Shown here piece after piece: positions 2,464-19,855 of a stretch of DNA of 60,543 bases. Location: contig JALUTY010000022.1 in NCBI GenBank assembly GCA_027021615.1, positions 1-60,543 on the forward strand, in the 5' to 3' direction. How positions within the stretch are numbered: position 1 is the first letter of the stretch; the number at the start of each line of letters is the position of its first letter. The position numbers were made by a program, and so were the translations under genes. Source of the DNA: a bacterium. GTDB lineage: Bacteria > Desulfobacterota > Deferrisomatia > Deferrisomatales > Deferrisomataceae. The notes below the pieces were generated by a model. That model saw nothing but the letters and a program-made list of their open reading frames with translations. It searched no databases and was not told where the DNA came from.

Positions 2464-3450
2464 GTGTTGGCCCGAGTCTTCCTCCTCAGCGCCTTTTGCG
2501 CCGCTGTCCTCTGGGCGACGGCAGCCTGCCGCTCGCCGGTGGACCGGGTGTTCGCCTTGCCCTTGGTTCGTCCTCCCGTGGAGGCGGAGTGGGAGGCGGC
2601 GGTGCCTCTACGCGTCCAGGCCGCGGGGGGGCGCACCACCCGTGCGAACGAAGCCTCGGTCGATGCCGACACGGTGCACAAGGCCACGGCATCGTGCCAC
2701 CACGGCACCCAGGCCCCGCCGGTGGACCTGGAGGTACGAGCGTTCTACACGCCGGAGCGGGTCTACCTCCGGCTCACCTGGTCGGACCCGACGCTGCACC
2801 GAGGGCCGGGGTGGATCTGGGACGGGAGCTCGTGGCGGCGGGGACCGTCGGGGCAGGATGGGGTGGCGATCCTCTGGGGGGCGGGAGCGGAAGGGTTCAC
2901 CTGCGCGAGGGCCTGCCACCTGGCGGACTTCCGCATGGCCGGAGTCCGAGCCTTTGCCGACTACCGGATGTCCACGCCCGAGGCATGGGGACGGTTGGAC
3001 CTGTGGGAGTGGAAGGCCGGGTGGGGCGGTCTGGCCGGCGTGGCCGACGATTTGTCCCTCGGCCCGGAAGGGCGCGGGCCCGACGTGCCGGGCGAGCGCT
3101 TTATGGAGAATCGGGCTCCGGACGCGGACGGGCCCCTGCTGGCTCCGGATCCGGAGCCCGGGGCTGAGGCCCCGGCCTTCGTGGACCGGGCTTCCCCGTC
3201 CGGCCGCACCGAGGTGGAGGCCGAGGGCAGGTGGGTCGCTGGGCGGTGGATCGTGACGTTCAGCCGGGATCTTCGGGGAACGGATCCGGGGGACGTGGTG
3301 CTGGAGCCGGGTGCCGTGTACCCGGTGGGGATCGCTCTCCTCGACGGCGTCAGCGAGGATCACACCGCGGTGGCCGAACCGGTGCGCATCTGGCTGGTGC
3401 CGCGGAAGAGGTTGCTTCCGGAGGTCGGTACAGCAGGCCCCGGTCTTTGA
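2464..3450 (+). CDS. Periplasmic haem-binding protein, ethylbenzene-dehydrogenase gamma-like
   Basis: The product has 328 residues with a GTG start and an N-terminal hydrophobic segment ending ATAAC, possibly a lipoprotein signal. The body resembles the beta-sandwich haem domain shared by ethylbenzene dehydrogenase gamma subunits and cytochrome c-552/DMSO-reductase partners (LEVRAFYTPERVYLRLTWSD, GQDGVAILWG). Two Cys-His clusters are visible, SCHHG near residue 78 and CARACH near 146; the second is a CxxxCH variant of a haem c site. The family normally passes electrons to or from a periplasmic molybdoenzyme, but no such enzyme is encoded here. It is first in a rightward set of four envelope genes. 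No clear Shine-Dalgarno was seen. Confidence 0.72.
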   Translation: MLARVFLLSAFCAAVLWATAACRSPVDRVFALPLVRPPVEAEWEAAVPLRVQAAGGRTTRANEASVDADTVHKATASCHHGTQAPPVDLEVRAFYTPERVYLRLTWSDPTLHRGPGWIWDGSSWRRGPSGQDGVAILWGAGAEGFTCARACHLADFRMAGVRAFADYRMSTPEAWGRLDLWEWKAGWGGLAGVADDLSLGPEGRGPDVPGERFMENRAPDADGPLLAPDPEPGAEAPAFVDRASPSGRTEVEAEGRWVAGRWIVTFSRDLRGTDPGDVVLEPGAVYPVGIALLDGVSEDHTAVAEPVRIWLVPRKRLLPEVGTAGPGL

Positions 3451-3517
3451 GCCGGAATGTGCGGGATCTGATACCCCGGCCCGAACGTGAGGGGATGATG
3501 TTGCGAAAAGGGGTGCC

Positions 3518-4255
3518 ATGAGCCGACGAACCCTGTTTCTCCTGGTTCTCGTTTTGTCCACGATCGCGGGGGGCTGCTCAACCTCGGAATGGGACCAGAA
3601 CACCCTCACCAAGGTCCGAGGAACGGTCTACGCACCAGCGGCCGGGGTGGTCCTGGATGTGTACAAGCCGGGCATGGACCTGCGGGGTCCTCCGTACCTG
3701 CAGTTGGGACCCCTGGACGACGGCGGATTCGAGATGGGGTTACCCCCCGGAGAGTACCTGCTGGTGGCGCGTCGCCGGGCGAGCGGGGAGAAGACCGGTC
3801 CGGTTCGGTCCGGGGACCTCAAGAGCGACCCGGTGCGGATCACCGTGGAGGCCGGCAGGCCCGTGGATCTGCCGATATTGGCCTACATAAAGCAGGGTAA
3901 CGCCAAGCAGCCGCTGGGCACGTCCGCAGGGTGGACCACGGGGATCCGGGGCCGTGTGGTGGATGCCGAGGGCAAGCCGGTGGAGGGGGTGCGGATCCAC
4001 GTGTACGACCACATTCAGATGTCGGAGCGGCCCAAATTCGTGTCGGCCAAGACCGGGCCAGACGGCCGCTACGAGGTGAAGCTCCCCGAGGGCGGTACGT
4101 ACTACGTCTGCGCCCGAAACCGCTACGGCGGCCCCCCCGAGGTGGGTGAGCTCTACGGTCGGTACGACCGGGGCACCGTGGACCCGTCGGCCGTGATCGT
4201 GCCCGAGGGCCAGGTGGTGACCGGTGTGGACATCACGGTGCACAAGGTATGGTAA
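3518..4255 (+). CDS. Lipoprotein with two carboxypeptidase-regulatory-like domains
   Basis: The 245 residue product starts with a lipoprotein signal peptide (STIAGGC, Cys about 20). It has two transthyretin-like beta-sandwich modules, about residues 30-120 and 140-245. Each has the typical G-x-V-x-D-x-x-G-x-P-V and PxGxYxLVARxR strands. The first ends with the segment GPVRSGD shared with the paralogue at 8125-9162. The second ends with a GGPPEVGE motif shared by the set. It lies 67 nt after the haem protein gene, and a HEAT-repeat lipoprotein gene follows. It probably forms a surface or periplasmic scaffold; no catalytic residues are evident. Confidence 0.75.
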   Translation: MSRRTLFLLVLVLSTIAGGCSTSEWDQNTLTKVRGTVYAPAAGVVLDVYKPGMDLRGPPYLQLGPLDDGGFEMGLPPGEYLLVARRRASGEKTGPVRSGDLKSDPVRITVEAGRPVDLPILAYIKQGNAKQPLGTSAGWTTGIRGRVVDAEGKPVEGVRIHVYDHIQMSERPKFVSAKTGPDGRYEVKLPEGGTYYVCARNRYGGPPEVGELYGRYDRGTVDPSAVIVPEGQVVTGVDITVHKVW

Positions 4256-4263
4256 GGGCGGCC

Positions 4264-4312
4264 GGGAGGCTCGGAGGCCGGAGGCGTCACCCGTCACCCG
4301 TCACCCGTCACG
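4264..4312. repeat. Tandem heptamer array (GTCACCC) next to GGAGGC repeats
   Basis: Between the stop of the upstream lipoprotein gene and the next start are three consecutive GTCACCC units plus a partial fourth (4286-4311). They are preceded by GGAGGC-like units (4264-4285). The region lies just upstream of the ribosome-binding site of the HEAT-repeat gene. Confidence 0.85.
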
Positions 4313-4338
4313 ACTCTAAGACTGGGGAGCTGAAAAGC

Positions 4339-5259
4339 TTGACAGGTGCCCGGCGACCATCGCTCGTTCTCGCCTCCCTCCTTTTGCTCCTCGTCGCCTG
4401 CGGGGTTCCCCGGACCGTGCCCGTGGAGGAGTTGGCCCAGGCGGCCCGCGCGGGGGATTCGGACGCGGCCGCGGACCTGGTGGGTCGGATGGGCCGGCCC
4501 TGGGACGAGCAGACCCGGTCCGAGGCGTACAAGGCCGTTTTATCCCTGCCAGAGGACGTGGTGGAGGCCCGGGTTCGCGAGGCGTGCCGGTCCCGGGACC
4601 CGGTGCTCCGGGAGCACGCCCTGGCCGTGGCCGGGAACCGGAAGTGGTCCTGGGCGTTCGACGCGGCCGAGGATGCCCTGGTGGACCAGGCGTTCCCGCG
4701 CCGGTATGTGGGAGCCTGGGTGCTGGGCGAGCTAGACCGGTCCGACGCGGCTCCGGTCTTGGTGGCCGCCCTGGCCCAAGGGGGGGATGTGGCCCGCGAG
4801 GTCACCCGGACCTTGGTGAAGCTGGGGAAGGCCGCCGTTCCGGCGATTCTGGAGGTCATGCCCGGGTTGCCGGCCGAGGCCCGGCTCCAGGCGGTACTCG
4901 CCCTGGGGGACATCCGGGACCGCCGCGCCGGGCCCCTTCTGGTGGAGGCCCTAGCCGACCCGTCCACCCGGTCCGCCGCGGCCTGGGCCCTGGGCATGCT
5001 GGGCGATTCGACCTACGCGGAGGACCTGCTGCCGCTCCTGGACGACCCGGACTGGCGCGTGCGGATGGAGGCGGCCCGGGCGCTGGGGGTGCTGGAGGCC
5101 GACCGGGCGGACGCGGACCTCGACCGGCTGCGCCGGGACGATCCGGTAGCCGCGGTGCGGGAGTGGGCGGCCCGCAGCCTCGCCCTGATCCGGAAGACCC
5201 CCCAGACCTTTCCGGACGAAACCGGCCGCCAGCGGCTTCCCGACAACGTGTATCGGTGA
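4339..5259 (+). CDS. HEAT-repeat lipoprotein
   Basis: With the TTG start at 4339 the product has 306 residues. This start is preferred because a GGGGAGC ribosome-binding site precedes it and it gives a clean lipoprotein signal (LLLLLVACG). An upstream ATG at 4249 would translate the repeat array. From about residue 60 to 300 there are helix-pair repeats such as PLLVEALADPSTRSAAAWAL and LLPLLDDPDWRVRMEAARAL, typical of HEAT/PBS-lyase repeats. Such repeats bind other proteins. It is third in the rightward envelope set and is followed by a NapH-like polyferredoxin gene. Confidence 0.8.
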   Translation: MTGARRPSLVLASLLLLLVACGVPRTVPVEELAQAARAGDSDAAADLVGRMGRPWDEQTRSEAYKAVLSLPEDVVEARVREACRSRDPVLREHALAVAGNRKWSWAFDAAEDALVDQAFPRRYVGAWVLGELDRSDAAPVLVAALAQGGDVAREVTRTLVKLGKAAVPAILEVMPGLPAEARLQAVLALGDIRDRRAGPLLVEALADPSTRSAAAWALGMLGDSTYAEDLLPLLDDPDWRVRMEAARALGVLEADRADADLDRLRRDDPVAAVREWAARSLALIRKTPQTFPDETGRQRLPDNVYR

Positions 5260-5262
5260 GGA

Positions 5263-5322
5263 GAGGCTAGAAAGCTGGAAGCCCCCATCGGCCGCACGTC
5301 CCAACGTCCTAACGTCCCAACG
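5263..5322. repeat. Short tandem repeat spacer (AAGCTGGAAGC and CGTCCCAACGTCCTAA classes)
   Basis: The spacer has GGCTAGAAAGCTGGAAGC units (5264-5282) and then CGTCCCAACGTCCTAACGTC units (5296-5322), three approximate 9-mers. It ends right at the GGAG ribosome-binding site of the next gene. The same 9-mer class recurs, in either orientation, at 17762, 19809 and 25680. Confidence 0.85.
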
Positions 5323-5333
5323 GAGTCTTTTGT

Positions 5334-6776
5334 TTGCCGAAGTTCCCTATCGACCTGCTCCAGCACCCCCCGACCCGTCCGCTGCTGCGGCCCGCAGGAG
5401 CTCAGACCGCTGTGCGGGTTGTGCTCCTGGTCGGGTACGTGGCGCTGGCGGCCCTGGGATGGGGGCGGGACGCGATTCCCGGCGTGCCCGACCTGCACCC
5501 TCGGGCGTACACCCACGCCACCACGCTTTTGTTCTGGGTGTTCTGGTTCATGGGGTTGGTGCTGGTGGTGCCGGTGCTCGGCCGGGCCTGGTGCGGGGTA
5601 TGCCCCCTGGGGTGGATGACCGATGCCGTGGGCCGGCGGGGGGTGGGGCTTCCGTGGCCCCGGTGGATCTCCCGGGGATGGGGGGCCCTGGTCGTGTTTG
5701 GACTCGGCGTCGGCGCGGTGGTGGGAACGCGGGCGAACCTGAGCCCCCATGTCACGGCGGTGCTCGTGACCGGGGTGGGAACCCTGGCCTTGGCCTCGGC
5801 CCTGCTGTGGCGGCGCAGCGCGTTCTGCCGGGGGCTGTGCCCGGTGGGCGCGGTGCTCGCCCTGTACGGCCGGCACGCTCCGGTGGCGGTGGGGCCCAAG
5901 GATCCGGGGGCGTGCCGCGCGTGCGGCCGGGCGTGTGTGGCCACGGCCCCAGAGTGGCGGCGTTCGGACTGGGGTCGGTGGGTGTGGTTCCACCGCTGGG
6001 ACCGGGGAGGGTGCCCCGTGGCCCTGGAGCCGGGCCGCATGGATGCCGCGGAGTGCCTCCTGTGCCTGCGGTGCCTGCGGCGGTGTCCCGGGGAGAACCT
6101 GGCGTTGTGGTGGGGCCGCCGGCCCTCTTCCGGGGACCTCGGTCCGGCCCGGGCGGTGTTCCTTGGCCTCCTGCTGGGGCTGGTGACCTTGGCCCTCTAC
6201 CGGACCTGGCCCGCAGCCGAGGTGGCGCTCACCCCGGGGGTCCGCCCGCCCGCGTGGCTGCGCAGCGCCTGGATAGGGGTGGTGGTGCCGGCGTTCCTCC
6301 TGGCCGTTCCCGCGGCCCTGGGCCGGACGGCGCTCTGGCTGGGGGGACGCCCCGAATCGCCGCCCGCTGGGGTCCGGCCGGGGCACGCCCCCCGGACGCG
6401 ACCGTTCGGGTGGCGGTCGGTCCTACCGGCGTTCGTGGGGCCGGTGCTTGGGGCCCACGGGGCACTCGCTCTGGTCAAGCTGAACGCCAAGGCGGGGTAC
6501 CTGCCCTACCTCGCGTACGATCCCCTGGGGGCCGAGACCTACCTGGCCGTGCACGTGTCCCGGGCTCTTGCGAAGCCCGATCTCCTGGTTCCCCTGGCCG
6601 TGCTCCGGTGGTTGGCCCTCGGGATCCTCGGCCTGGGCATCCTGGGCGGGGCCCGGGTGCTCGTCCGCCGGTGGCACAGCCCGGAGACCCGGCAGGAGGC
6701 CCTGTGGTACCTGCCCTCCTGGCTCCTGGTCTCCGGGGGGCTGGCGGCGGCGCTGTGGCATTGGCTGGGGGGGTAG
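5334..6776 (+). CDS. NapH/NosR-type membrane polyferredoxin
   Basis: The product has 480 residues and starts at TTG with GGAG eight bases upstream. Several membrane segments are apparent (near residues 25-45, 60-85, 115-135, 140-160, 265-285, 310-330, 425-450 and 460-480). CGVCPLG (about 89) and CRGLCPVG (about 165) are the motifs of 4Fe-4S membrane proteins of the NapH/MauN family. A soluble loop adds CRACGRAC and CLLCLRCLRRCPG clusters. Such proteins carry electrons between the quinone pool and periplasmic partners. The neighbouring haem protein and beta-helix proteins resemble accessory parts of nos-like systems, but no nosZ or napA is present. Which redox pathway it serves is unknown. Confidence 0.82.
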   Translation: MPKFPIDLLQHPPTRPLLRPAGAQTAVRVVLLVGYVALAALGWGRDAIPGVPDLHPRAYTHATTLLFWVFWFMGLVLVVPVLGRAWCGVCPLGWMTDAVGRRGVGLPWPRWISRGWGALVVFGLGVGAVVGTRANLSPHVTAVLVTGVGTLALASALLWRRSAFCRGLCPVGAVLALYGRHAPVAVGPKDPGACRACGRACVATAPEWRRSDWGRWVWFHRWDRGGCPVALEPGRMDAAECLLCLRCLRRCPGENLALWWGRRPSSGDLGPARAVFLGLLLGLVTLALYRTWPAAEVALTPGVRPPAWLRSAWIGVVVPAFLLAVPAALGRTALWLGGRPESPPAGVRPGHAPRTRPFGWRSVLPAFVGPVLGAHGALALVKLNAKAGYLPYLAYDPLGAETYLAVHVSRALAKPDLLVPLAVLRWLALGILGLGILGGARVLVRRWHSPETRQEALWYLPSWLLVSGGLAAALWHWLGG

Positions 6777-6790
6777 GGAGGAGGGCCGCC

Positions 6791-6860
6791 GGTCGCAGGT
6801 CGTTCGTCGTTCGCTACCAGCCCCATTCCGGGGAGCAACCGACCGGCGACCTGCGACGAG
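6791..6860. repeat. Inverted repeat with GTCGTTCGTCGTTCG units
   Basis: GTCGCAGGTCG (6792-6802) is answered by CGACCTGCGAC (6848-6858). GTCGTTCGTCGTTCG microsatellite-like units lie beside the left arm. It lies after the stop of the NapH-like gene and may act as a weak transcriptional end. Confidence 0.55.
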
Positions 6861-6890
6861 CGATGGACGGACTCCCGGCCGCCTCATAGC

Positions 6891-7165
6891 AAGTTGCGTT
6901 CAAAGCCATCAGACCTCTGAACCGGCGGGGCAAGGGGCCTGGTGGAGCGCCGGGCGTGGCTCCTACAGTCGCTGCACCCGGCACTCAGCCGATGTTTGCC
7001 TCGCGACAATCCCGAACATGCCTTGTCAACGTTCGCTTTTCCAGCGCCCAAGGAGCATAGGGCTGAGTGCCGGGTGCGGCGTAAGTCGGATGCTGCACTC
7101 ACGCACGGCCGGAACCAGGCCCCTTGCCCCGGCCCCCCGGATGGATCTTGGTTTGAACGCAACTT
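6891..7165. repeat. Dispersed hairpin element, copy 1
   Basis: Outer arms AAGTTGCGTTCAAA (6891-6904) and TTTGAACGCAACTT (7152-7165) are perfect complements. Inside, GGGGCAAGGGGCCTGGT (6927-6943) pairs with ACCAGGCCCCTTGCCCC (7114-7130). An asymmetric loop of GGAGC (6944-6948) and CGGA (7110-7113) follows. Then comes a 10 bp helix with one mismatch, 6949-6958 with 7100-7109. A further 17 bp inner stem pairs 6974-6990 with 7061-7077. The element fills the gap between two convergent genes. No protein is encoded in it. Copies at 27615-27801 and 50210-50400 keep the loop but change both arms together. Confidence 0.85.
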
Positions 7166-7169
7166 GGTA

Positions 7170-8135
7170 TCACTCCGGCGGCCGGCCCGGGAACGGCCAC
7201 GGCACCGGAACGGGCCGGGGCAGGACCGGTCGCACGTCGATGCCCCTGCCCACACGGCGCTCCCGCCCGTCCCGCGAGGCCTCCACCACCTGGTCGGCCG
7301 AAAGCCCGCCCCAGTAGTTTTCGGGAAACCGAAGGCCCTGATCCTGCTCCCAGCCGAGCTTCACCGGCACCCGGTTGGCCCGCAGGTTGTTGGAGCGGAA
7401 CACGGTGCCGCCGCCGCACCGGGTCACCGCGAAGATGCCCACCTCGTTGTCCGAGATCTCGTTGCCCTCCACCCGGGCCGGGTGACCCCGCTCCTCGAAC
7501 CGGATCCCGTGGATGTTGTGGTGGATCCACGACCCCTCCAGGGTGAGGTCGGCCGTGGAGAACCGCACACCGTCCACGTTGTCGGCGAACTCGCACCGCC
7601 GGATGGCTGCGGGGCTGTAGTGGACCTGGATGCCGCTGAAGGCGTGCCGAACCCGCACGAACTCCAGCTCCGCGCCCGACGCGAAGTTGACCATCAGGTA
7701 CTTCCAGTCCCCGGGGCGGGGCTCGGGCTCGGCCGAGGCCAGATCGATGGGCCGCTTCGCCGTGCCCCGCGCGGTGAGCCGACCCTCCACCGTGATCTCG
7801 GCGTCGCCGATGCCGTCTCCGTCCCAGTCGACCCGCCGGAACCGCACCCGGGTGCCGGGCGCGATCACCAGCTCCCCGCTCGAGCGCACCACCACGATCC
7901 GGTCGAGCACCACCTCGCCGCTCCACTCGGTGCGGCCCGTGATCGACTCGGTGGGCATGGCGTGGAGGTCGGTGGGGGGCACACCGGGCCCCGGCGTTCG
8001 GCATCCGGCGAGGAACATCAACAGGACGAGATGGGTGACGAGTGACGGGGTTTCCGCTGCCCAGCCGCCCAGCAGCCTAGCGTCCCCGCCTTCCAGCCTC
8101 CCAGCCTCCCAGCCTCCCAGCCGATTAGCCCCCAT
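7170..8135 (-). CDS. Beta-helix lipoprotein-like protein
   Basis: The open frame of 321 residues ends in a beta-helix-like region (about 90-270), with turns such as LEGSWIHHNIHGIRFEER and VEGNEISDNEVGIF. A DWDGDGIGDAEI segment resembles calcium-binding loops. A hydrophobic stretch ending MFLAGC (about residues 36-45) looks like a lipoprotein signal. The true start is uncertain: the ATG at 8135 overlaps the end of the upstream gene by 11 nt but reads through GGCTGGGA repeats (WEAGRL) before the signal, and I see no clean ATG or GTG nearer to it. It is last in the leftward operon from 15.4 kb and paralogous in fold to the 130-1623 product. Confidence 0.7.
   Translation of the reverse strand: MGANRLGGWEAGRLEGGDARLLGGWAAETPSLVTHLVLLMFLAGCRTPGPGVPPTDLHAMPTESITGRTEWSGEVVLDRIVVVRSSGELVIAPGTRVRFRRVDWDGDGIGDAEITVEGRLTARGTAKRPIDLASAEPEPRPGDWKYLMVNFASGAELEFVRVRHAFSGIQVHYSPAAIRRCEFADNVDGVRFSTADLTLEGSWIHHNIHGIRFEERGHPARVEGNEISDNEVGIFAVTRCGGGTVFRSNNLRANRVPVKLGWEQDQGLRFPENYWGGLSADQVVEASRDGRERRVGRGIDVRPVLPRPVPVPWPFPGRPPE
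8056..8122. repeat. GGCTGGGA octamer array
   Basis: About four units of CCCAGCCT (8091-8122) are preceded by degenerate units. The array lies inside the 5' part of the downstream beta-helix frame. The unit is 8 nt, so a change in copy number would shift the frame. Confidence 0.85.
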
Positions 8136-9162
8136 CCAGCACCCTCTTCACCACGATCTCCACCCCCTCCAGCACCCGACCCCGGGGCACCACCAGGCCG
8201 TGGTCGGGCGAGCCCTCGTAGAACCCGAACCACTCTCCCGGCTGGGGCGAGCCCCCGGAGTTCTCCCGACCGCCCAGGTAGAACAGGCCGCCCTCGCCCA
8301 GGGGCAGCTCGAACCGGCCGTCCGGGCCGGTGGGTAGGGTGCGGAAGTCGGGCATGCCGTGGCCGATGGTCCGGTTTCGGTAGGCGAACACGTACACCCC
8401 GGCCACGGGCCGGCCCTGGGGGTCCACCACCCGGCCGCGGACACCGGTGCCGGTGAGCTCCAGGCTGCCGGCGTCAGGGGCCGTGTCCCGTTCCTTCTTC
8501 ACCAGGTGGATGTCGAGCCGGGTCTCCTGGCCGTCCCGGATCGGAACGGGGTTGGCCGGGGCGATTCCGTAGAGGTCGCCCTTGCGCACCGGCCCCATGC
8601 CGCCCTCGTGGAGCCGCTTGCGGGCCACCACCCAGTACCGGCCCGCAAGCACCCCCTCGATCACGTACGCGCCGTCGGGGCCTGTGGGAAACGAGTCCTG
8701 GATGCCCGGTCCCCTCAGGCCCCGGCTTTCGTCCGCATACAGGCTGACGACCGCCCCTTCCACGGGCCGGCCCCGGTGGAGAACCCTGCCTGCGATCGAC
8801 CCGAACCCGGGTTCGGCGTCGGCCAGGAGAGCAAACGTCGGGGACTCTGCAGGCACGGCCTGGAGCCCGATCCAAACCGGTTGGCCCGGCGGCAGGTACA
8901 CCGGGTTCTGTCCTGGGATCGCCGCCAAGGGGCCCGGCCCTCGGGCCTCCACCCGGTACGGGCCCGGCGGAAGGTGGGGGGCCTCGAACCGGCCGTCGGG
9001 GCCGGTGCGAACCTCGGCCCCTGCGCCCCCGTTCGTCGGCTCGAGCCGTACCCGAGCCCCGGCCAGCGGGCTGCCGTCGTGCATCACCCGGCCCCGCACG
9101 GCGGCCCGGGGGGCACAGGCGGAAAGGATTGCCCCGACGAGGAGCAGGGCCCACCCTCTCAT
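8125..9162 (-). CDS. Lipoprotein with three carboxypeptidase-regulatory-like domains
   Basis: The 345 residue product has a lipoprotein signal (AILSACAP, Cys 16). Three transthyretin-like modules follow, at about residues 20-110, 120-225 and 235-345. The second carries RYWVVARKR then GPVRKGDLYG, and the third ends GGSPQPGEWFGFYEG. These motifs are shared with the proteins at 3518, 9159 and 10436. It overlaps the upstream gene by 4 nt and the downstream one by 11 nt, so translation is probably coupled. The fold is a beta-sandwich used for adhesion or scaffolding. There is no catalytic site visible. Confidence 0.75.
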   Translation of the reverse strand: MRGWALLLVGAILSACAPRAAVRGRVMHDGSPLAGARVRLEPTNGGAGAEVRTGPDGRFEAPHLPPGPYRVEARGPGPLAAIPGQNPVYLPPGQPVWIGLQAVPAESPTFALLADAEPGFGSIAGRVLHRGRPVEGAVVSLYADESRGLRGPGIQDSFPTGPDGAYVIEGVLAGRYWVVARKRLHEGGMGPVRKGDLYGIAPANPVPIRDGQETRLDIHLVKKERDTAPDAGSLELTGTGVRGRVVDPQGRPVAGVYVFAYRNRTIGHGMPDFRTLPTGPDGRFELPLGEGGLFYLGGRENSGGSPQPGEWFGFYEGSPDHGLVVPRGRVLEGVEIVVKRVLDGG

Positions 9163-10187
9163 CGCGCTACCCCCACCCGGATCGGCACGGGGCCGGTCTC
9201 CCCCTCGGCCACGTCGGCGTCGCCGAACGGCTCCCCTTCGGCCGGGGGGCCTCCCAGGCTCTTCCGGGCCCGCAGGTACGCGGCCGAGCCCGGCGGGATC
9301 GGGACGAACGTGCGGCCGTCGGGCCCGGTGGGTGAGCTCACGGCCATGGGCGGGCCCGATCGGGTCGGCACGGGGTAGGCCAGCACGTGGTATCCGGCCA
9401 GCGGTTGGCCGTCCTGGCCCGTGACCATGACAAGGAGCCCGTGGTAGGCGTCGGGGTCCTCCTCGAGCTGGCTCAGGCGCTCCACCAGCGGCATCTCCAG
9501 CCGCACCACCTCACCGGCGCCCACCCGCACGGGGTTGCCGGCGTAGAAGTTGAACCGGTCACCGACCTCGATGGGGCCGTACGAGCCGCCCCGGGCCCGC
9601 TTGCGCGCCACCAGGTAGTAGGTGCCCGGCGGCACCGCCACCCGGAACCGGCCCGTGCGCACCGGCACGGTTCGTCGGGCCGGTCCCCGGAACGCCGCAC
9701 CTGGGCCCGAGTACAGGTAGAGGTAGCACTTCTCCACGGGCTCGCCGTCGAAGGTGATGACGCCCTCGATCCGGCTGCGCTCGGACCGGCTCCGGCGTTC
9801 CTCGGGCACCCGGATCAGGTTCAGCCCCACCGCGGTCCACGCCCCGGCGGTCACCACCACGGGGGATCCGGAGTACAGGCACCATAGGTCTCCGGGCTCG
9901 GGCCTCGAGCCCGTGTTCCCCTCGGCCTTGGCCAGCCCTTCCACCACGTACCGGCCTGGGGGAAGCTCGATTCGGTAGGTGCCGTCGGTGGCGGTTCGGG
10001 CCTCGCCCACCGGTCTCTCTCCGGTCCACGGGCCGAAGGTGCCCGGCCGGTACGCGTAGGTCCGCACCACCAGGCCCTCCACCAGGGTGCCCCCCAGGCT
10101 CACCCGGCCGCGCACGCCCTGATCGGCCCCCGCTCTGGCGGCCAATCCCAGGAGAACGACGCCGGCGAGCGAGGCCACCGTCGCCAT
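9159..10187 (-). CDS. Exported protein with carboxypeptidase-regulatory-like domains
   Basis: With the ATG at 10187 the product has 342 residues and starts with a typical signal peptide (LAGVVLLGLAARAGA). Three beta-sandwich modules of the same type as its neighbours follow, with YYLVARKRARGGSYGPIEVG in the second and LGGPPAEGEPFG near the C-terminus. Unlike the paralogues it lacks a lipobox, so it may be soluble in the periplasm or secreted. The frame stays open far upstream, but that part lies over repeats and the neighbouring gene. The ribosome-binding site is weak, so an ATG further up cannot be excluded. Confidence 0.7.
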   Translation of the reverse strand: MATVASLAGVVLLGLAARAGADQGVRGRVSLGGTLVEGLVVRTYAYRPGTFGPWTGERPVGEARTATDGTYRIELPPGRYVVEGLAKAEGNTGSRPEPGDLWCLYSGSPVVVTAGAWTAVGLNLIRVPEERRSRSERSRIEGVITFDGEPVEKCYLYLYSGPGAAFRGPARRTVPVRTGRFRVAVPPGTYYLVARKRARGGSYGPIEVGDRFNFYAGNPVRVGAGEVVRLEMPLVERLSQLEEDPDAYHGLLVMVTGQDGQPLAGYHVLAYPVPTRSGPPMAVSSPTGPDGRTFVPIPPGSAAYLRARKSLGGPPAEGEPFGDADVAEGETGPVPIRVGVAR

Positions 10188-10227
10188 CCAGGCCGTCCGA
10201 CGAGGCCCCGTATCGCGGACCTGCTTC

Positions 10228-10268
10228 CCTCTCCCCTCGGGGGGGAGAGGGCCAGGGGGAGGGGGGGC
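10228..10268. repeat. GC-rich palindromic element (CCCTCTCCCC type)
   Basis: CCCTCTCCCC followed within a few bases by GGGGGGAGAGGG forms a hairpin. A related element lies at 17802-17843. Similar palindromes are dispersed in many proteobacterial genomes. Confidence 0.6.
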
Positions 10269-10325
10269 AGACGGATTCCCGCCGTCCCGCCCCAGTGGGT
10301 CGACGGTCGCTCCCGCGGGAGCGGG

Positions 10326-10361
10326 CCCAGCCTCCCAGCCTCCCAGCCTCCCAGCCTCCCA
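10326..10361. repeat. GGCTGGGA octamer array, four and a half units
   Basis: Perfect tandem CCCAGCCT units in the spacer between the lipoprotein genes at 10436 and 9159. This is the cleanest array of its class in the window. Confidence 0.9.
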
Positions 10362-10435
10362 CGGGCAAAGGGACTCGCATCTTCGCTTGAGGGGGGTTTT
10401 CATCGGCGGGCCACCTGGTTCGTTCGTGTTACCCG

Positions 10436-11476
10436 TCACCATATCTCCTCCACCACGATGCGAACCCCGCGCAGCGGGGCGCCCGGGGCCACCCGCACGC
10501 CGTTCCCGTCGTCGCCCCGGAACGCCCCCACCCGTTCCCCTGGCTCGGCTGGGCCGCCGATCCGGCTGCGGGCGCCCAGCCAGTACGTGCCGGGGCCCGG
10601 CAGATAGATTCGGAACTCGCCCGATGGACCGGTTGGGGGCGCCATGGCTGCGGGTTTCCCCACCATTCTCGGGTCCGTGAACGCCAACACGTAGAGCCCC
10701 TCGGCAGGTCGGCCGCCGGGGTCCACCACCGTGCCCTCCACCCAGGTGTCGCCCTTGGGGGAGGCCCGCAGGGTTTGGCCCCAAATGCTCGGGTCCAGGG
10801 GGCGCAGCGCCAGAGGCGGGGCCTGTACGGTGCCACGGCTGGGTACCTGCACCACGGTCTCGGCCACCTTGTCCCCCGGCACCAAGCTGCCGTGGGGCTC
10901 CCCGCTCCGGCGCCACCGGGCGGCCAGGGTGTACGTTCCCGGCCGAAGGCCGAGCCGATACCGGCCGGCCGTGTCCGGGGCCGCGGCCGCGGCAAACCCG
11001 GGGCCGGTGGGCCGCCGGTGCCGGCCGGGGTACGCGTACACCATGACCTCTGCGAAAGGCGCCCCCCGCACGATCCCCTCCACCGGGATCCCCGAGCCGA
11101 CGCCCGAGGCCCCCAGGGCCGAGGGATCGGTCAGCACAACGTCCGCCCGGGCCGTGCGTCCGGCCTGCACCCGCACCGGCGAGGGCGACGCCTCCCCCCG
11201 GAGCCGCACCGGCCTGCCGTCGCGCTCCGCGGTGGCCCGGGCCCAGATCCAGTACGTGCCGGCCGGCAGTTCCAGCCGGAAGCGGCCGGCCCCGTCGCTG
11301 GCCGCCTCGGCCAGCGGTGCCACGGCTGGGTCGAGATCGGGCCGCGGGTAGGCCTGCACGAGGGCTGTGGCGACGCCCCGACCGTCCCATTTCACGGTGC
11401 CCTCCACCGTTCCCGGGCCGGCTGGGGCGGAGCACCCCATCGCCACGAGGGCGATGCCGAGGATCACCGCTCTCAC
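10436..11476 (-). CDS. Lipoprotein with three carboxypeptidase-regulatory-like domains
   Basis: The 346 residue product has a lipoprotein signal ending VAMGCSAP (Cys 15). Three transthyretin-like modules follow (about 20-115, 125-225, 240-346), each with a PAGTYW, RPGTYTL or PGPGTYWLGAR strand. The C-terminal block GGPAEPGERVGAF followed by a VRIVVEEIW-type end matches the end of the 3518-4255 product (VDITVHKVW). It overlaps the upstream membrane-enzyme gene by 4 nt, which indicates one operon. It is probably a surface or periplasmic scaffold. Confidence 0.75.
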   Translation of the reverse strand: MRAVILGIALVAMGCSAPAGPGTVEGTVKWDGRGVATALVQAYPRPDLDPAVAPLAEAASDGAGRFRLELPAGTYWIWARATAERDGRPVRLRGEASPSPVRVQAGRTARADVVLTDPSALGASGVGSGIPVEGIVRGAPFAEVMVYAYPGRHRRPTGPGFAAAAAPDTAGRYRLGLRPGTYTLAARWRRSGEPHGSLVPGDKVAETVVQVPSRGTVQAPPLALRPLDPSIWGQTLRASPKGDTWVEGTVVDPGGRPAEGLYVLAFTDPRMVGKPAAMAPPTGPSGEFRIYLPGPGTYWLGARSRIGGPAEPGERVGAFRGDDGNGVRVAPGAPLRGVRIVVEEIW

Positions 11477-13911
11477 CGGCCCCCTCCCAGCCGCGGTACT
11501 AGGATCGCCGCACTCGCGTACACCGCCGCGCCCGCGACCAGGGTGCCGGTGTATCCGAAGTGCAGCGCCACGAGCAGCGCGCCCACCGATCCCAGGATCC
11601 CCGCGGCGCCGTTAAGGGCCCAGCACCAGGGCAGGCTGGCCCCAGCCGTCCGCCCGAGGAGGGCCATGCCGGAGGGGAACGGGATGCCCATGAGAAACGC
11701 CAAGGGAGCGAGCGCCGCAACGGCCACGGCAGCCCGACCGACCAGCCCCCAGGGGTGATCGGGCCGGAACCAACCGGGGGCCAGGAGGGCCCAGGCCCAG
11801 ACCCCGGCGGCCACCACCAGCAGAACCGCCGCCAGGCGCCTGGGATTCGGAGCGATCCGAGGGGCCAGCAGGCTTCCCAAACCGCTGCCGCACAGGAACG
11901 CGGCCAGCACGGCGGCGGCGGCGTAGACGGGGTGGGCCAGGAACAGGACGAGCCGTTTCAAGATGCCGATCTCCACCAGCATGTACCCCAGCCCGATGGC
12001 CGCTGCATAGGCGAGCGCCGGCCCTCCCCCCCGGGGAAGCGCGTGGCGCAGCGCCACCGGCGCCACCAGTCCGACCAGGGTGAGCAGCGCCAGCACCAGG
12101 AAGGCGGAGCGGAGCAGCAGCACTCCCTGGTTGTCGAACCCCACGGCCCGGGACCCGGGCTGCAGAAAGTCTTGGAGCCTCAATGTGTAGTAGAAGAACG
12201 GCCGGTCGTCCGTGGGAGGAGACAGGTCGTAGGGCAATCGGTCCAGCGCAGACGAAAGCTCCGGGGCTTCCAGGATCCGGGCTAGGAGGTTGTCTCCCCC
12301 CTCCGGCGGGTAGAGCATCCGGAATCGGGCAGCTTTCACCCGCTCTCGGAGCGATCGGTCCTCCTGCGGGGTGAACGGCCTCCGGCTCACGAGCACGTTG
12401 GCCACGGCCCGGTCCCCCACCACCCGCACGTGGGCCTGGGGCCCCGCCACCCCCTGGCGGTCCAACAGGTCGCGAACGAGCGCCACCAACCGGGGGGCCC
12501 TGCGCTCGTGGGCGAACAACGTGATGGACAGGATGCCATCGGGCGACAGGCGTCGCCAGTACGCCTCCAAGGCCTCCCGCGTGTGGAGGAAGTCCTCCGA
12601 CAAGGTGAACACGCCGGCTGCCGGCGGCATCCGGCCGAACACGGCCGAGGCCTCGATCACGTCGTACCGGGCCGGGTCCCGCGCCGTGAAGGCCCGGGCG
12701 TCGGCCACCGCGAGGCGTACCCGGGCATCGGAGTACGGGCGGCCCGTGAACCCGGCGAACACCTCCTCCACCATCTCGACGACCCCGGGGTTGATCTCCA
12801 CGGCCTGGACCCGGGTCCCGGGGAACGACAGGGCCACCCACACGTCCTTGCCCCCGCCCGGCCCCACGATCAGGGTCCGGGCCCCGGGTCTCAGGTGCCA
12901 TGCCAAAGCCACCAGGTTCTGGCGGAAGTAGTCCGGGTTGGCCCGGGCGGCATCCCCCTCGTACAGGTTGGTGTAGCCTGAGTCGTCCACCACGAGCCCG
13001 AGCTGCTGCGGGTGGGGACCCCGGTACCTCGGCGAGAGCCCGAACGGCCGGGCGGCCCCACCCGGGGCCAAAGGGTAGGCGGCCACCCGGCTCATGGGGT
13101 TCCACCGCACGGCCAGCAGGCCCGGCTCGTACCGGCCCCGGGCCAGGGGCAGCTCGGCTGCGCCGGTCACGTCCAGCCCCCAGGCCAGGGCGCACCCGGC
13201 CAGCAGCATGAGGATCGTACCGAGCGGGGCGCGTCTTCGCCCTGCGGCAGCGGCGAAGGCCAGGGACGCCACCGCGGCCAAGGCAGCCGGCGCGCTCCAC
13301 ACCGTGAGGGCCGCCGGAACGGCCGCGGCCCCGATCCCGGAACCGCCCAGGATCCAGGCATAGGTGCGGTGGATCCGGCCCCTCCCTGCCGAGAGCGCCG
13401 CGGCCAGTGCCACGCCGGCCCCCAAAAACGGAAGCCCCGCGGCCCCGGCCAGGGCGGCCACCCTCCACCCGATGCCGGAGTCGGGAAGCGCGGCCAGGGT
13501 GCGCGCGAACGGTTGGAAGAACGGTTGGTGGAACGGCGCCAGGGCCCAGGCCGCGAGGCGGGGGCTGAAGTGAACGGCCACGAGCCCGGCCAGGAACCCC
13601 AGCACCCCCACGCCGAACCCGGCGGCGCCCCATCGAACCAGCCCCGGGCCTGGGCGCCGCACCAGGCCCACCCAGACCGCCCCGGCCGACAGCCCCAGGA
13701 GCGCGACCCCGATGGTGAGGCTGGCGAAGTGGTACCACATGAGCACCGAGAACAGCCGCAGCAGGAGGAGCTCATAGGCCAGCACCCCGGCCGACAGGGC
13801 CAGGAGCGCCAGCCCCCCTGCGGACGAACAAAAGGGCTGCCCCTGGGCAGCCCTGCTTGGTTCCGCTCGAGGCACCCGCTCAGCGGGAAGCGAGCTCACG
13901 CGGCTCCTCAA
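11473..13911 (-). CDS. Membrane-bound spermidine-synthase-like methyltransferase-fold protein
   Basis: The product has 812 residues. About six or seven hydrophobic segments come first (residues 30-240). A soluble domain (about 270-560) follows with the nucleotide-binding loop TLIVGPGGGKDVWVAL, the acidic VQAVEINPGVVEMV, and ADARAFTARDPARYDVIEAS, as in spermidine synthases. A second block of membrane segments (about 590-812) completes it. Proteins of this layout are common in bacteria but mostly uncharacterised; polyamine synthesis is not proven for them. The start overlaps the upstream gene by 32 nt. It sits between a VCBS protein gene and lipoprotein genes, so a role in modifying or exporting that system's parts is possible. 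Confidence 0.75.
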   Translation of the reverse strand: MRSRVSSLPAERVPRAEPSRAAQGQPFCSSAGGLALLALSAGVLAYELLLLRLFSVLMWYHFASLTIGVALLGLSAGAVWVGLVRRPGPGLVRWGAAGFGVGVLGFLAGLVAVHFSPRLAAWALAPFHQPFFQPFARTLAALPDSGIGWRVAALAGAAGLPFLGAGVALAAALSAGRGRIHRTYAWILGGSGIGAAAVPAALTVWSAPAALAAVASLAFAAAAGRRRAPLGTILMLLAGCALAWGLDVTGAAELPLARGRYEPGLLAVRWNPMSRVAAYPLAPGGAARPFGLSPRYRGPHPQQLGLVVDDSGYTNLYEGDAARANPDYFRQNLVALAWHLRPGARTLIVGPGGGKDVWVALSFPGTRVQAVEINPGVVEMVEEVFAGFTGRPYSDARVRLAVADARAFTARDPARYDVIEASAVFGRMPPAAGVFTLSEDFLHTREALEAYWRRLSPDGILSITLFAHERRAPRLVALVRDLLDRQGVAGPQAHVRVVGDRAVANVLVSRRPFTPQEDRSLRERVKAARFRMLYPPEGGDNLLARILEAPELSSALDRLPYDLSPPTDDRPFFYYTLRLQDFLQPGSRAVGFDNQGVLLLRSAFLVLALLTLVGLVAPVALRHALPRGGGPALAYAAAIGLGYMLVEIGILKRLVLFLAHPVYAAAAVLAAFLCGSGLGSLLAPRIAPNPRRLAAVLLVVAAGVWAWALLAPGWFRPDHPWGLVGRAAVAVAALAPLAFLMGIPFPSGMALLGRTAGASLPWCWALNGAAGILGSVGALLVALHFGYTGTLVAGAAVYASAAILVPRLGGGR

Positions 13912-15343
13912 TGGTGAGCACCCGGCCGGGAGTGATCCCGGTGAGGACCTTGCGGGCCCCGCTCGGGAACCGCACCTCTACGGTGTAGGTGCTGCCGGCC
14001 TGGACCCCGAAGAGGAGCTCCTGGGGGGGTTGGGCGCAAAATCCGGAGGCCGTGGGGAGCTCGGCCATGCCCACCAACTTGCCTTCCCGGCGCACCCACA
14101 CCCGGGAGCCCACGGCCATGCGGTTCGACAGGGTGCCCACGAGCCGCACCTTGAGCCAGTTGCCGTCGTCGAGCGTGTTGCGCAACAGCCGGTTCTCCAC
14201 GCCCCAGTTCACCACGTACAGGTCCAGGTCCCCGTCCGAGTCCACGTCGGCGAACATCGTGCCCTTGGTCCGCACGGTCTCGCACCGCACGTCCGGGTTG
14301 CGGTCCGCGATGTTCGTGAAGGTACCGTCCCCGTTGTTCCGGTAGAGCTGGTTCGCCACCTTGCAGTCGCCCTCGTACAGGTCCAGGTCGCCGTCGTGAT
14401 CGATGTCTCCGAAAGCAGGGCCCTTACCCCACCCCTCGTCGGCCAGCCCGGCCCGGGCTCCCACCTCGGTGAACCGGCCGGTGCCGTCGTTCAGGTACAG
14501 GGCGTTGGGGCCCACGTAGTTCGACACGAACAGGTCCAGGTCGCCGTCCGAGTCCACGTCGGCAAAGGCCGCGCCCAGGCCCCAGTTGGCGTCCGCCACG
14601 CCGGCCTCCCGGCTCACCTCCCGGAACGTGCCGTCCCGGTTGTTCAGGTACAGCCGGTTCGGCTCGCCGGCCGGGTACCGGCCGTTCACCACGTACAGGT
14701 CCTGCCACCCGTCCCCGTTCACGTCGGCCCACACCGCCATCCACGACCACGACCGGTCGCCCACGCCCGCCTGGTCGGTGACCTCGGTGAACGTTCCGTC
14801 CCCGTTGTTGTGAAACAGCTGGTTCTTGGCGCCCACGCCGTAGTTGGCCAGGTACAGGTCCAGGTACCCGTCGTTGTCGTAGTCGGCCGCAGCCGCGGCA
14901 TAGGTGAACGCCTTGGATCCCACTCCGGCCGAGTCGGTCACGTCCACGAACCGGCCGCCCACGTTCCTGAGCAGGCGGTTGGCCTCCACCTCGTACCGGC
15001 CACCCTTGGCGAGGTAGAGGTCCACCCACCCGTCGTTGTCATAGTCGAAGAAGATCGATCCCATGGCGAAGCCGGCATCCCCCAAGTTGTCGCCGGCCTC
15101 GGCCGTGATGTCGGTGAACGTGCCGTCGCCGTTGTTGCGGTACAGACGGTTGGCTCCGCCCTTGTTCGACACGTACAGGTCCCAGTCGCCGTCGTTGTCG
15201 ATGTCGGCAAACGCCACGCCCTTGCCGTTGCCCGCGTCACCCACTCCGGCCAAGCGGGTCACGTCGGTAAACAGGCTGTCGGCACCGAAGGCGGGCGCCG
15301 AGCAAAGTGCGGCAATGAGGATCGCGGAAACGGTGTGTTTCAT
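13880..15343 (-). CDS. VCBS/FG-GAP repeat protein with ASPIC/UnbV C-terminus
   Basis: The 487 residue product begins with a signal peptide (LIAALCSAPAFGA). It has about seven repeats containing ADxDxDGDxDLYV calcium-binding loops followed by NxLYxNxGDGTFT, the FG-GAP/VCBS blade pattern of beta-propellers. The C-terminal 90 residues (GNWLKVRLVG onward) match the ASPIC/UnbV domain. The CRTAC1-like family is secreted or cell-surface and binds calcium. It is first in the leftward operon, behind a good promoter at 15397-15425. Confidence 0.88.
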   Translation of the reverse strand: MKHTVSAILIAALCSAPAFGADSLFTDVTRLAGVGDAGNGKGVAFADIDNDGDWDLYVSNKGGANRLYRNNGDGTFTDITAEAGDNLGDAGFAMGSIFFDYDNDGWVDLYLAKGGRYEVEANRLLRNVGGRFVDVTDSAGVGSKAFTYAAAAADYDNDGYLDLYLANYGVGAKNQLFHNNGDGTFTEVTDQAGVGDRSWSWMAVWADVNGDGWQDLYVVNGRYPAGEPNRLYLNNRDGTFREVSREAGVADANWGLGAAFADVDSDGDLDLFVSNYVGPNALYLNDGTGRFTEVGARAGLADEGWGKGPAFGDIDHDGDLDLYEGDCKVANQLYRNNGDGTFTNIADRNPDVRCETVRTKGTMFADVDSDGDLDLYVVNWGVENRLLRNTLDDGNWLKVRLVGTLSNRMAVGSRVWVRREGKLVGMAELPTASGFCAQPPQELLFGVQAGSTYTVEVRFPSGARKVLTGITPGRVLTIEEPRELASR

Positions 15344-15396
15344 GGGAATGCCGCCTCCAGAGAAGAGCGGAAGGCCTGCAACGCAACGCGGTCCCT

Positions 15397-15425
15397 AGTA
15401 TGGCCCAGCCACCCGGACCCGTCAA
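15397..15425 (-). promoter_or_regulatory. Sigma-70-like promoter of the VCBS/lipoprotein operon
   Basis: On the minus strand TTGACG is separated by 17 nt from CATACT, about 50 nt upstream of the 15343 start. Confidence 0.7.
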
Positions 15426-15560
15426 AGACGGACCGGGACGCCTCAGGTACACCCGCGGAGGCGAGAAGTTACCTCGCGCGTCCCTCCGGTCTTTTTTGCG
15501 GAGTCGGCGCATTCGGTCGGGGGCGCTTTGCCCCTGCGAGGAGCAGGATGCCTAAAGAAA

Positions 15561-15598
15561 AGAGCCCCGGAGGGAAGGACCCTCCGGGGCTCTTTTTG
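15561..15598 (-). terminator. Intrinsic terminator after the porin-like gene
   Basis: A perfect 14 bp stem, AGAGCCCCGGAGGG and its complement, has a 5 nt loop and T-rich sequence on both sides, so it can work in either direction. Confidence 0.9.
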
Positions 15599-15618
15599 TG
15601 GCGTGGTGGGCGCCGGGC

Positions 15619-16962
15619 TTAGAAGCCCACGTTCACCATGGCGTAAAGGACATAGGGGTTGTCCGGGTCCTCGCCGCCCGCCTGCTTGTCGAAGAAGTCG
15701 CCCAGGCTCAGGATCGACCCGTTCAAGGAGACGTCCACGATCTCGGCGACCTTGTACCCCACCCGGGCCGCGATCTCGGTGCCAAGGCTGTTGCCCTCGC
15801 GCTTCGTGCCCGCCGTGTTCCGGTCGTCCTCCACAGCGGCCATGTAGCCGACAGAGACCTTGGCGTACGCCTGCTTCATCGTCGGCGGCACATAGGAGGT
15901 GCTCAGGATGGCGCCCCACAGGCCGTAGCCCGCGGCCTGGGCGTCATTGAAGCCGTAGCCCTCAGACCCGATGGTGGTCCAGGTGGCATCAGGGGTGAGG
16001 AGCATGAGGTTGTCCATGTAGAACGGGAAGTTCTCCTGGGCAGTCGTGAGGAGGACCGCGGAGTTCACGTCACCGTCCGCGGCGTCGTCATCACCGGAGA
16101 AGTAGAACAGCCGCAGGCCCACCTTGGCGCCGGCCAAGGACGTAGTGCCCTTGATGCTCGCGGCCCAGCCGGACACATCGGCTTCCTCGTCGCCCTCGGC
16201 GTTCATGGTGCCGAAGTTGTAGAACGCCCAGGCCTTCAGGTTCACCTGGGGCAGCTTGTAGGCGGCGTTCACGCCCAGGTAGTACAGGTCATCCCCCGCG
16301 CTCACCGGAATACCCAGGCTGCCGTCCCCGTTGGCGTTGATGTAGTACCCGTCCACGCCGAGCTTCAGGCCCTGCACCGGCTTCAGGCCGACCTGCAGCC
16401 CCCAGAAGTCCACATCGTCCTCGTTGCTGTCCCCGCCGGCGCTGCCTTCCTGCCACTTGGACCAGATGCCGGTCACGTTGAAGGCATCGAGCTTGGCGGA
16501 GACCTTCACCCCGGCCATGTCGGCGCCGACGAACACGAGGTCCCAGTTGTCGCCAAAACCCTGCAGGCCCACCCGGGCGCTCACCGGGGTGTCGGGGACC
16601 TTCACGTTCACGTACAGGTTCTTGGTCTCCAGGTTCACGGTGTCGCCGCCGATGGCGCCGCCCTGGTTCCGGGTCGAGCCGGGGGCTCCGCCACGAGCTC
16701 CGCCGTAGGCCGCGTCACCGTACTGCATGTCCACCTCGCCGTAGTACGTGACGCTCACGTACTCGTTGAGGCCCATCGTCCACTTGAACCGGGCCCGCTG
16801 GTCGACGAGGGTGTTGGGCTCCATGTCCTTGGCCAGCTTCTGGCCGTACTGCATGAAACGGACGCGATAGAACCCATTGATGCTGTGGTCCTTCGCGAAG
16901 GCCGGCAGGGCCATCGCGATGGCCAGGGTGCTCGACAGAGCGACAAGCAGTTTTTTCTTCAT
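15619..16962 (-). CDS. Outer-membrane beta-barrel (porin-like) protein
   Basis: With the ATG at 16962 the product has 447 residues, a strong signal peptide (LSSTLAIAMALPAFA) and an aromatic C-terminus ending MVNVGF, typical for outer-membrane barrel insertion. Alternating short beta strands such as VKVSAKLDAFNVTGIWSKW run throughout. The start is set by AGGAGG seven bases upstream; a second ATG at 16968 is too close to it. It is monocistronic, with its own strong promoter about 200 nt upstream and a terminator directly behind. It resembles porins of delta-type proteobacteria. The substrate cannot be inferred. Confidence 0.8.
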   Translation of the reverse strand: MKKKLLVALSSTLAIAMALPAFAKDHSINGFYRVRFMQYGQKLAKDMEPNTLVDQRARFKWTMGLNEYVSVTYYGEVDMQYGDAAYGGARGGAPGSTRNQGGAIGGDTVNLETKNLYVNVKVPDTPVSARVGLQGFGDNWDLVFVGADMAGVKVSAKLDAFNVTGIWSKWQEGSAGGDSNEDDVDFWGLQVGLKPVQGLKLGVDGYYINANGDGSLGIPVSAGDDLYYLGVNAAYKLPQVNLKAWAFYNFGTMNAEGDEEADVSGWAASIKGTTSLAGAKVGLRLFYFSGDDDAADGDVNSAVLLTTAQENFPFYMDNLMLLTPDATWTTIGSEGYGFNDAQAAGYGLWGAILSTSYVPPTMKQAYAKVSVGYMAAVEDDRNTAGTKREGNSLGTEIAARVGYKVAEIVDVSLNGSILSLGDFFDKQAGGEDPDNPYVLYAMVNVGF

Positions 16963-17165
16963 TCCCATTCCTCCTGTAGTTGGTTGACCCAACCCTTCAC
17001 GCAACGTTCGGTCCTGTAAACCCTCTCCTTGCTTCCTCCGGTGGCACACCTCCTTTTTGCCAGATCGTTGGAAATGGAAACTACCCCTCCGAACCCTCAC
17101 TTTATCGCCGAACCAAGCCGCCCGAAGCCGGACGGTGGAGGTCAATAAAAAACCTCGCGCGCGGA

Positions 17166-17194
17166 GCATAACAGCGGTTCAAAACGGGTGTCAA
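17166..17194 (-). promoter_or_regulatory. Strong sigma-70-like promoter of the porin-like gene
   Basis: On the minus strand a perfect TTGACA and TTATGC stand 17 nt apart. Transcription would begin near 17159, giving an untranslated leader of about 195 nt. Confidence 0.75.
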
Positions 17195-19816: not shown

Positions 19817-19855
19817 GACGTTGGGACGTGGGGATGTTCGGACGGGAGGATGTTG
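19809..19855. repeat. GACGTTAGG-type tandem repeat spanning the mutL stop
   Basis: Five imperfect units (GACGTTAGG, ACGTTGGG, ACGTGGGG, ATGTTCGG, ACGGGAGG). The first contains the mutL TAG and the last supplies the GGGAGG before the first miaA start candidate. Confidence 0.85.

Follow-up and report, generated by a model that had tools for sequence, protein, structure and literature searches.

A degenerate octamer array at a gene junction is probably translated as the leader of a beta-helix lipoprotein in a member of the Deferrisomataceae

Short tandem arrays dispersed between genes and tandem repeats within coding sequence are usually separate subjects, which the locus described here joins. 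Among coding repeats, the neuO gene of Escherichia coli K1 has AAGACTC heptamers in its 5′ coding region, with 3–53 repeats in 64 genomes (20 being the commonest number), and in one strain 93% of cells carried 21 units and the others 20 or 22 (PMC13001214). The opa genes of Neisseria have CTCTT pentamers in the leader-peptide region, with phase variation at approximately 10−3 per cell per generation (PMC3960869). Among dispersed arrays, the multicopy elements of Geobacter metallireducens are described as including tandem hepta- and octanucleotides, for which roles as regulatory sites or RNAs were proposed (PMC2700814). The open-licence literature that we searched yielded no arrays of the kind reported below in Deferrisomatales or as lipoprotein leaders.

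The array lies in a window of 60,543 nucleotides, the whole stretch of DNA analysed, from a genome of the Deferrisomataceae (G000), which we compared with two sister genomes of the same genus (G001 and G002) and with more distant relatives. It occupies positions 8056–8122 of the minus strand, between the start of a beta-helix gene and the signal core, and it is genuine. Tandem Repeats Finder reports 8060–8122 with a period of 8, 7.9 copies and 81% matches, and the longest pure period-8 run (30 nt, 8122–8093) compares with a maximum of 20 nt when the window was replicated 60 times under a first-order Markov model. Three of ten successive in-register octamers are exact copies of GGCTGGGA and the remainder are degenerate. 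The features of the junction, in reading order, are as follows.

8125–9162, minus strand: upstream gene for a carboxypeptidase-regulatory-like protein with a lipobox-like N terminus; its stop overlaps the gene that begins at ATG 8135
8133–8135, minus strand: ATG, the sole usable in-frame start of the beta-helix gene, overlapping the last codons upstream
8093–8122, minus strand: pure octamer run, 3.75 units of GGCTGGGA
8056–8092, minus strand: degenerate octamers
8033–8049, minus strand: remnant of a CGTCACC-type heptamer array, after the octamers; longer in G002
8001–8030, minus strand: short hydrophobic core and lipobox (LVLLMFLAGC), read from the sequence
7170–8003, minus strand: mature beta-helix protein (Pfam Beta_helix, NosD)

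From ATG 8135 through the array to the lipobox (LAGC) the frame is open and unchanged, and because the upstream stop codon (TAA) lies at 8127–8125, this ATG overlaps the end of the upstream gene. The only other in-frame ATG, GTG or TTG codons ahead of the lipobox cysteine (8003–8001) are TTG 8021 and ATG 8018, which are 6 and 5 codons from it, a distance too small for a signal peptide, so that neither is a usable start. The initial annotation had placed the array in frame between the only evident ATG and the signal peptide, and it is supported both by this lack of other usable starts and by the matching ATG positions in G004 and G002 described below. The encoded protein has 321 residues, with Beta_helix and NosD matches that exceed the Pfam cut-offs, and shows the succession of hydrophobic core and lipobox that marks a lipoprotein. 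The positively charged n-region, another mark of lipoproteins, is absent from the G000 beta-helix leader, which has a net charge of −1 (0 across the final 15 residues); the remaining four leaders considered below range from +8 to +10, the G002 beta-helix leader having +10.

The gene is part of a cluster (window 2464–17169) that encodes carboxypeptidase-regulatory-like proteins and beta-helix and HEAT lipoproteins, together with ethylbenzene-dehydrogenase-domain, 4Fe-4S, FG-GAP/ASPIC and alginate-export-like proteins; portions of this cluster are likewise grouped in G003 and G005. Directly after the beta-helix gene, at window 6927–7170, there are inverted repeats resembling a mobile element. 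Copies of their end motif, CCAAGTTGCGTTCAAACC, number 5 in G000, 4 in G001, 6 in G002 and 0 in 10 other genomes, and in G002 the motif is found at the same position as in the window, after the beta-helix gene.

Six orthologues of the beta-helix protein were checked outside the genus (55–70% identity). Five (G003, G004, G008, G009 and G010) are free of an array and start at the upstream stop (GTGA, ATGA or TGATG); the sixth (G005) has a different period-7 repeat and then an ordinary GTG start. When G004 (GTGCTGGAATGAGG) is set against the window (GTGCTGGATGGGGGCTAA), the ATG positions match, as an ATGA overlap in G004, and in the window the array follows the ATG. The G002 orthologue (93% identity over residues 34–321) keeps the ATG and has a longer, differently built array with a frame that is open to the lipobox; its leader contains no second ATG, GTG or TTG before the lipobox. 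Between G000 and G002 the array lengths diverge by one octamer plus a further 73 nt elsewhere, a net 81 nt, and the reading frame is therefore kept. Two of two beta-helix alleles among the relatives are thus in frame, although the sample is small.

Our preferred explanation is that the junction array is probably translated as the N-terminal leader of the beta-helix lipoprotein and that its frame is kept. Degenerate 7- and 8-nt tandem arrays of a genus-wide family are found at gene junctions. The focal array sits just 3′ of the old start codon that overlaps the upstream stop and, being downstream of that codon, would be translated as a leader, which extends for roughly 35 residues up to the hydrophobic core in G000 and roughly 60 in G002. 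Repeats with a 7- or 8-nt unit encode one repeating peptide whatever the frame (GWEAGRLG; RHPSPVT), and because the peptide is identical in each frame, such arrays can grow in a coding region with few stops, given the right exit frame. The exit frame of the leader arrays has been maintained through changes in length. The position, the open frame, the absence of other usable starts, the in-frame length changes and the in-frame arrays of an enzyme gene (see below) are established at the level of sequence; ribosome initiation at ATG 8135 and lipoprotein export we infer.

The focal array is one member of a large family. Matches to a degenerate octamer pattern, with overlapping matches counted separately, number 291 in G000, 415 in G001, 300 in G002, 63 in G007, 14 in G022, 11 in G005 and 7 in G003, and there are none in the remaining 23 of 30 genomes; the reversed pattern, used as a control, gave 0 matches. 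When periods of 4 to 16 were compared (in the window, 239 kb of C78 and 340 kb of G002), 7 and 8 were prominent, besides their multiples 14 and 16, and first-order Markov copies had 0 or 1 repeat region per period. Of 116 arrays in a first sample, 115 lie outside coding cores, as do 90 of the 91 in a further 400 kb; the cores come from a home-made gene finder and arrays in leaders and loops are also scored as outside. The many related copies across the genome and their predominant location at junctions are those of a dispersed-array class; the focal copy appears to depart from the non-coding character of that class, translation being its best reading.

Blocks in the alignment of G000 with G002 are mostly 82–98% identical, and many of the breaks contain arrays or other repeats. 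In intergenic regions (L079–L090 of G000 C78; L067–L078 of G002), mosaics that differ by lineage are composed of arrays, GGGCCTTCGGCCC hairpins and longer elements (some 270–500 nt, with matching ends) that one sister genome has and the other is without.

A screen for genes in which an array would have to be translated gave one hit in the first sample and no hit in the additional 400 kb, a zero that means little because the screen catches only one of the four G000 and G002 beta-helix and HEAT leaders. Manual reading of the 22 open-frame array cases in the 400 kb revealed an asparagine-synthase-like gene. Among the other 21, 20 have an ATG, GTG or TTG that either lies between the array and the gene core or falls no more than 15 nt from where that core begins; the last one (161988) has an ATG 10 codons past the array.

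The asparagine-synthase-like gene has its array inside the conserved body in G002 (L165:2–1099, minus strand), G000 (L180) and G001 (L181), so that no doubt about the start codon arises. In G002 the gene is intact (668 codons) and the array falls between RGPDEEGYFVN and GHRRLSIIDLS; the protein scores above the cut-off of TIGR01536, whereas TIGR03108 gives the top score but below its cut-off. The orthologues in G000 and G001 are 94% and 89% identical, with different arrays at the same site, and the motif-to-motif spacing is 180, 171 and 183 nt in G000, G002 and G001, respectively, all multiples of three with no in-frame stops. Against the solved homologue 7ylz, residues 1–39 and 83 onward align and the intervening stretch is unmatched, the solved homologues being without the array-encoded loop. 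The G012 protein has a loop of comparable length at this site that is not array-like, and the site therefore tolerates inserts. Unless the gene is dead, it shows independently of the leaders that 7- and 8-nt arrays of this family are translated in one or more further genes, and the in-frame arrays in the enzyme suggest coding sequence that is tolerated, not a dedicated switch.

Arrays of the family also touch other genes in the window.

4249–5259, plus strand: HEAT-repeat lipoprotein of the same design as the beta-helix gene, with an ATG overlapping the upstream stop, an array (4265–4323) and a signal core
10313–10376, minus strand: octamer array in the 5′ open frame of the gene at 9159
19805–20002, plus strand: octamer and heptamer arrays at the mutL–miaA junction, open in the miaA frame

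The design of the HEAT lipoprotein is common to G000, G001 and G002, which are three species. In each, the ATG is created by an upstream GTA codon, where relatives have GTC or GTG (GTA makes up 1.6% of valine codons), and the frame passes through octamers and CGTCACC heptamers and is open through to the signal core. Alternative starts are a TTG after the array (G000), an in-frame GTG inside the array (G001) and CTG codons near the core (G001 and G002). The gene is array-free in G003, G005, G006, G008, G009, G010 and G011, with a start at most 4 nt from the upstream stop; in G004 there is an array and then GTG codons. Period-7 arrays of other kinds are thus found in other genera, at the HEAT junction (L127, G004) and at the beta-helix junction (L015, G005), and as ordinary GTG starts follow them, arrays have entered such junctions more than once.

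We dropped the gene at 9159 as a case requiring translation of its array, since starts are available downstream of it. MiaA was also dropped as an obligate translated array: the miaA frame (19850) is open across two arrays whose lengths are unchanged in G002, and in the long reading TIGR00174 matches from residue 49 onward, which leaves a GTG at residue 50 as a possible start. At the same junction an octamer unit contributes the TAG stop of mutL (GTTAGG), and the arrays of G000 and G002 are equal in length, with one base changed.

All five leaders (132, 213, 150, 210 and 207 nt) are divisible by three and stop-free in the ATG frame. Every other frame has at least one stop, a comparison that is weaker than it appears because one non-ATG frame must contain the stop of the upstream gene. 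As the leaders are related to each other and two were found because they are in frame, we give no combined probability. The background of open frames in intervals centred on sampled arrays is 157 of 552 (28%) at 150 nt and 119 of 552 (22%) at 200 nt. Among 28 array surroundings that changed in length between G000 and G002, 12 did so by a multiple of three; without the arrays of the beta-helix gene and the gene at 9159 the figure is 10 of 26, two of the 10 sharing a region.

The weak n-region in G000 is compatible with an array that is untranslated, the beta-helix gene either starting at a non-canonical codon near the hydrophobic core or decaying at its 5′ end, and the CTG codons near the HEAT core in G001 and G002 point the same way. 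We regard this as unlikely. In G002, the codons just before the beta-helix core include no CTG, only ATC; the mature part is under purifying selection between G000 and G002 (dN 0.020, dS 0.087, dN/dS of approximately 0.23); and the asparagine-synthase-like gene, unless dead, translates its arrays.

The initial annotation held that one 8-nt unit gained or lost would shift the frame, and this is borne out: the unit is not a triplet, it lies within the apparent coding start, and one of the shifted frames stops after 12 codons while the other is open and encodes an unrelated sequence. Slippage is plausible because intergenic arrays of the sister genomes gain and lose whole units: in six aligned G000–G002 intergenic arrays, picked for small length differences, five have gaps of 7, 8 or 16 nt (one has 15 and 16), and the focal array itself differs by one octamer. 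It is nevertheless doubtful that octamer slippage toggles the lipoprotein at a high rate, as at a phase-variable contingency locus. Phase-variable coding repeats are typically long pure arrays, and the longest pure run here is 30 nt, or 3.75 units. Both alleles are in frame, the octamer difference being offset by other indels; the arrays at 10326, 19809, 19919, 19956 and 25682 are unchanged in length in G002, and of 38 anchored arrays, 10 are equally long in G000 and G002; and arrays of the same family are in frame inside the body of an enzyme in three of three species. The further claim that the protein is switched off and on thus found no support, and phase variation at the beta-helix locus is possible but unproven.

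The octamers contain GGGAGG or AGGAGG, and a chain of Shine–Dalgarno sites was considered and dropped because sense bias is absent: relative to co-directional genes, 18 octamer arrays are sense and 19 antisense (a count that pools orthologous stretches from two genomes), and 4 are sense and 12 antisense in a further 400 kb. A quadruplex as the main role was also dropped, the fold energy with quadruplexes being −29.1 against a mean of −33.5 (s.d. 9.8) for 100 mononucleotide shuffles. That the array is a DNA or RNA regulatory element (a regulator site or G-quadruplex) with incidental coding capacity is very improbable, given that the orientation is inconsistent, the fold no better than in shuffles and the kept frame left unexplained, even though the family is chiefly intergenic and similar arrays are described as proposed regulator sites in Geobacter and as quadruplexes in vitro in Xanthomonas and Nostoc.

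Beyond the probable leader at the beta-helix locus, we tentatively suggest that 7- and 8-nt junction arrays are frame-agnostic coding material, made into lipoprotein leaders and an enzyme loop. Because each would specify a single repeating peptide in every frame, with few stops, such arrays may be able to enter gene starts and loops, and an octamer array in tandem with a heptamer array may allow a two-part reset. If this is true, a shift in the octamer array could be offset in the adjoining heptamer array, which would be switching with an unusual two-part reset, and different species would carry different arrays as leaders or as the enzyme loop. Overlapping stop and start codons, which leave a junction array within the next gene, are a plausible intermediate step. 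The array-free relatives supply an outgroup state, so that the conversion of repeat DNA to a protein leader or loop is testable within one genus. Gene starts in array-rich genomes may be miscalled.

Among the described systems, neuO is like the focal array in having a translated non-triplet tandem unit near the N terminus, the number of which sets the frame, and differs in its many out-of-frame alleles and measured within-strain variants (PMC13001214); the focal array, by comparison, has 3.75 pure units, is degenerate, is in frame in both known alleles and is one of a large dispersed family. In the opa genes, too, an exported protein has a coding repeat at its leader, but there a rate of phase variation is reported (PMC3960869). 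The Geobacter elements are also dispersed 7- and 8-nt tandem repeats, some of them intragenic (in a heptanucleotide family of 49), but their units are unlike the focal one and the passages describing them include no leader role (PMC2700814). Genome-wide short arrays at gene junctions are reported for GGGNATC in Xanthomonas and Nostoc, a different unit that is described as mostly non-coding and under-represented in coding regions (PMC4692102), and for TAACTGA in Beggiatoaceae, which changes in 7-nt steps between close strains and is again a different, mostly non-coding unit (PMC4679880). On our best reading, the focal array belongs to the dispersed heptamer and octamer kind and, at the beta-helix locus, acts like an N-terminal coding repeat.
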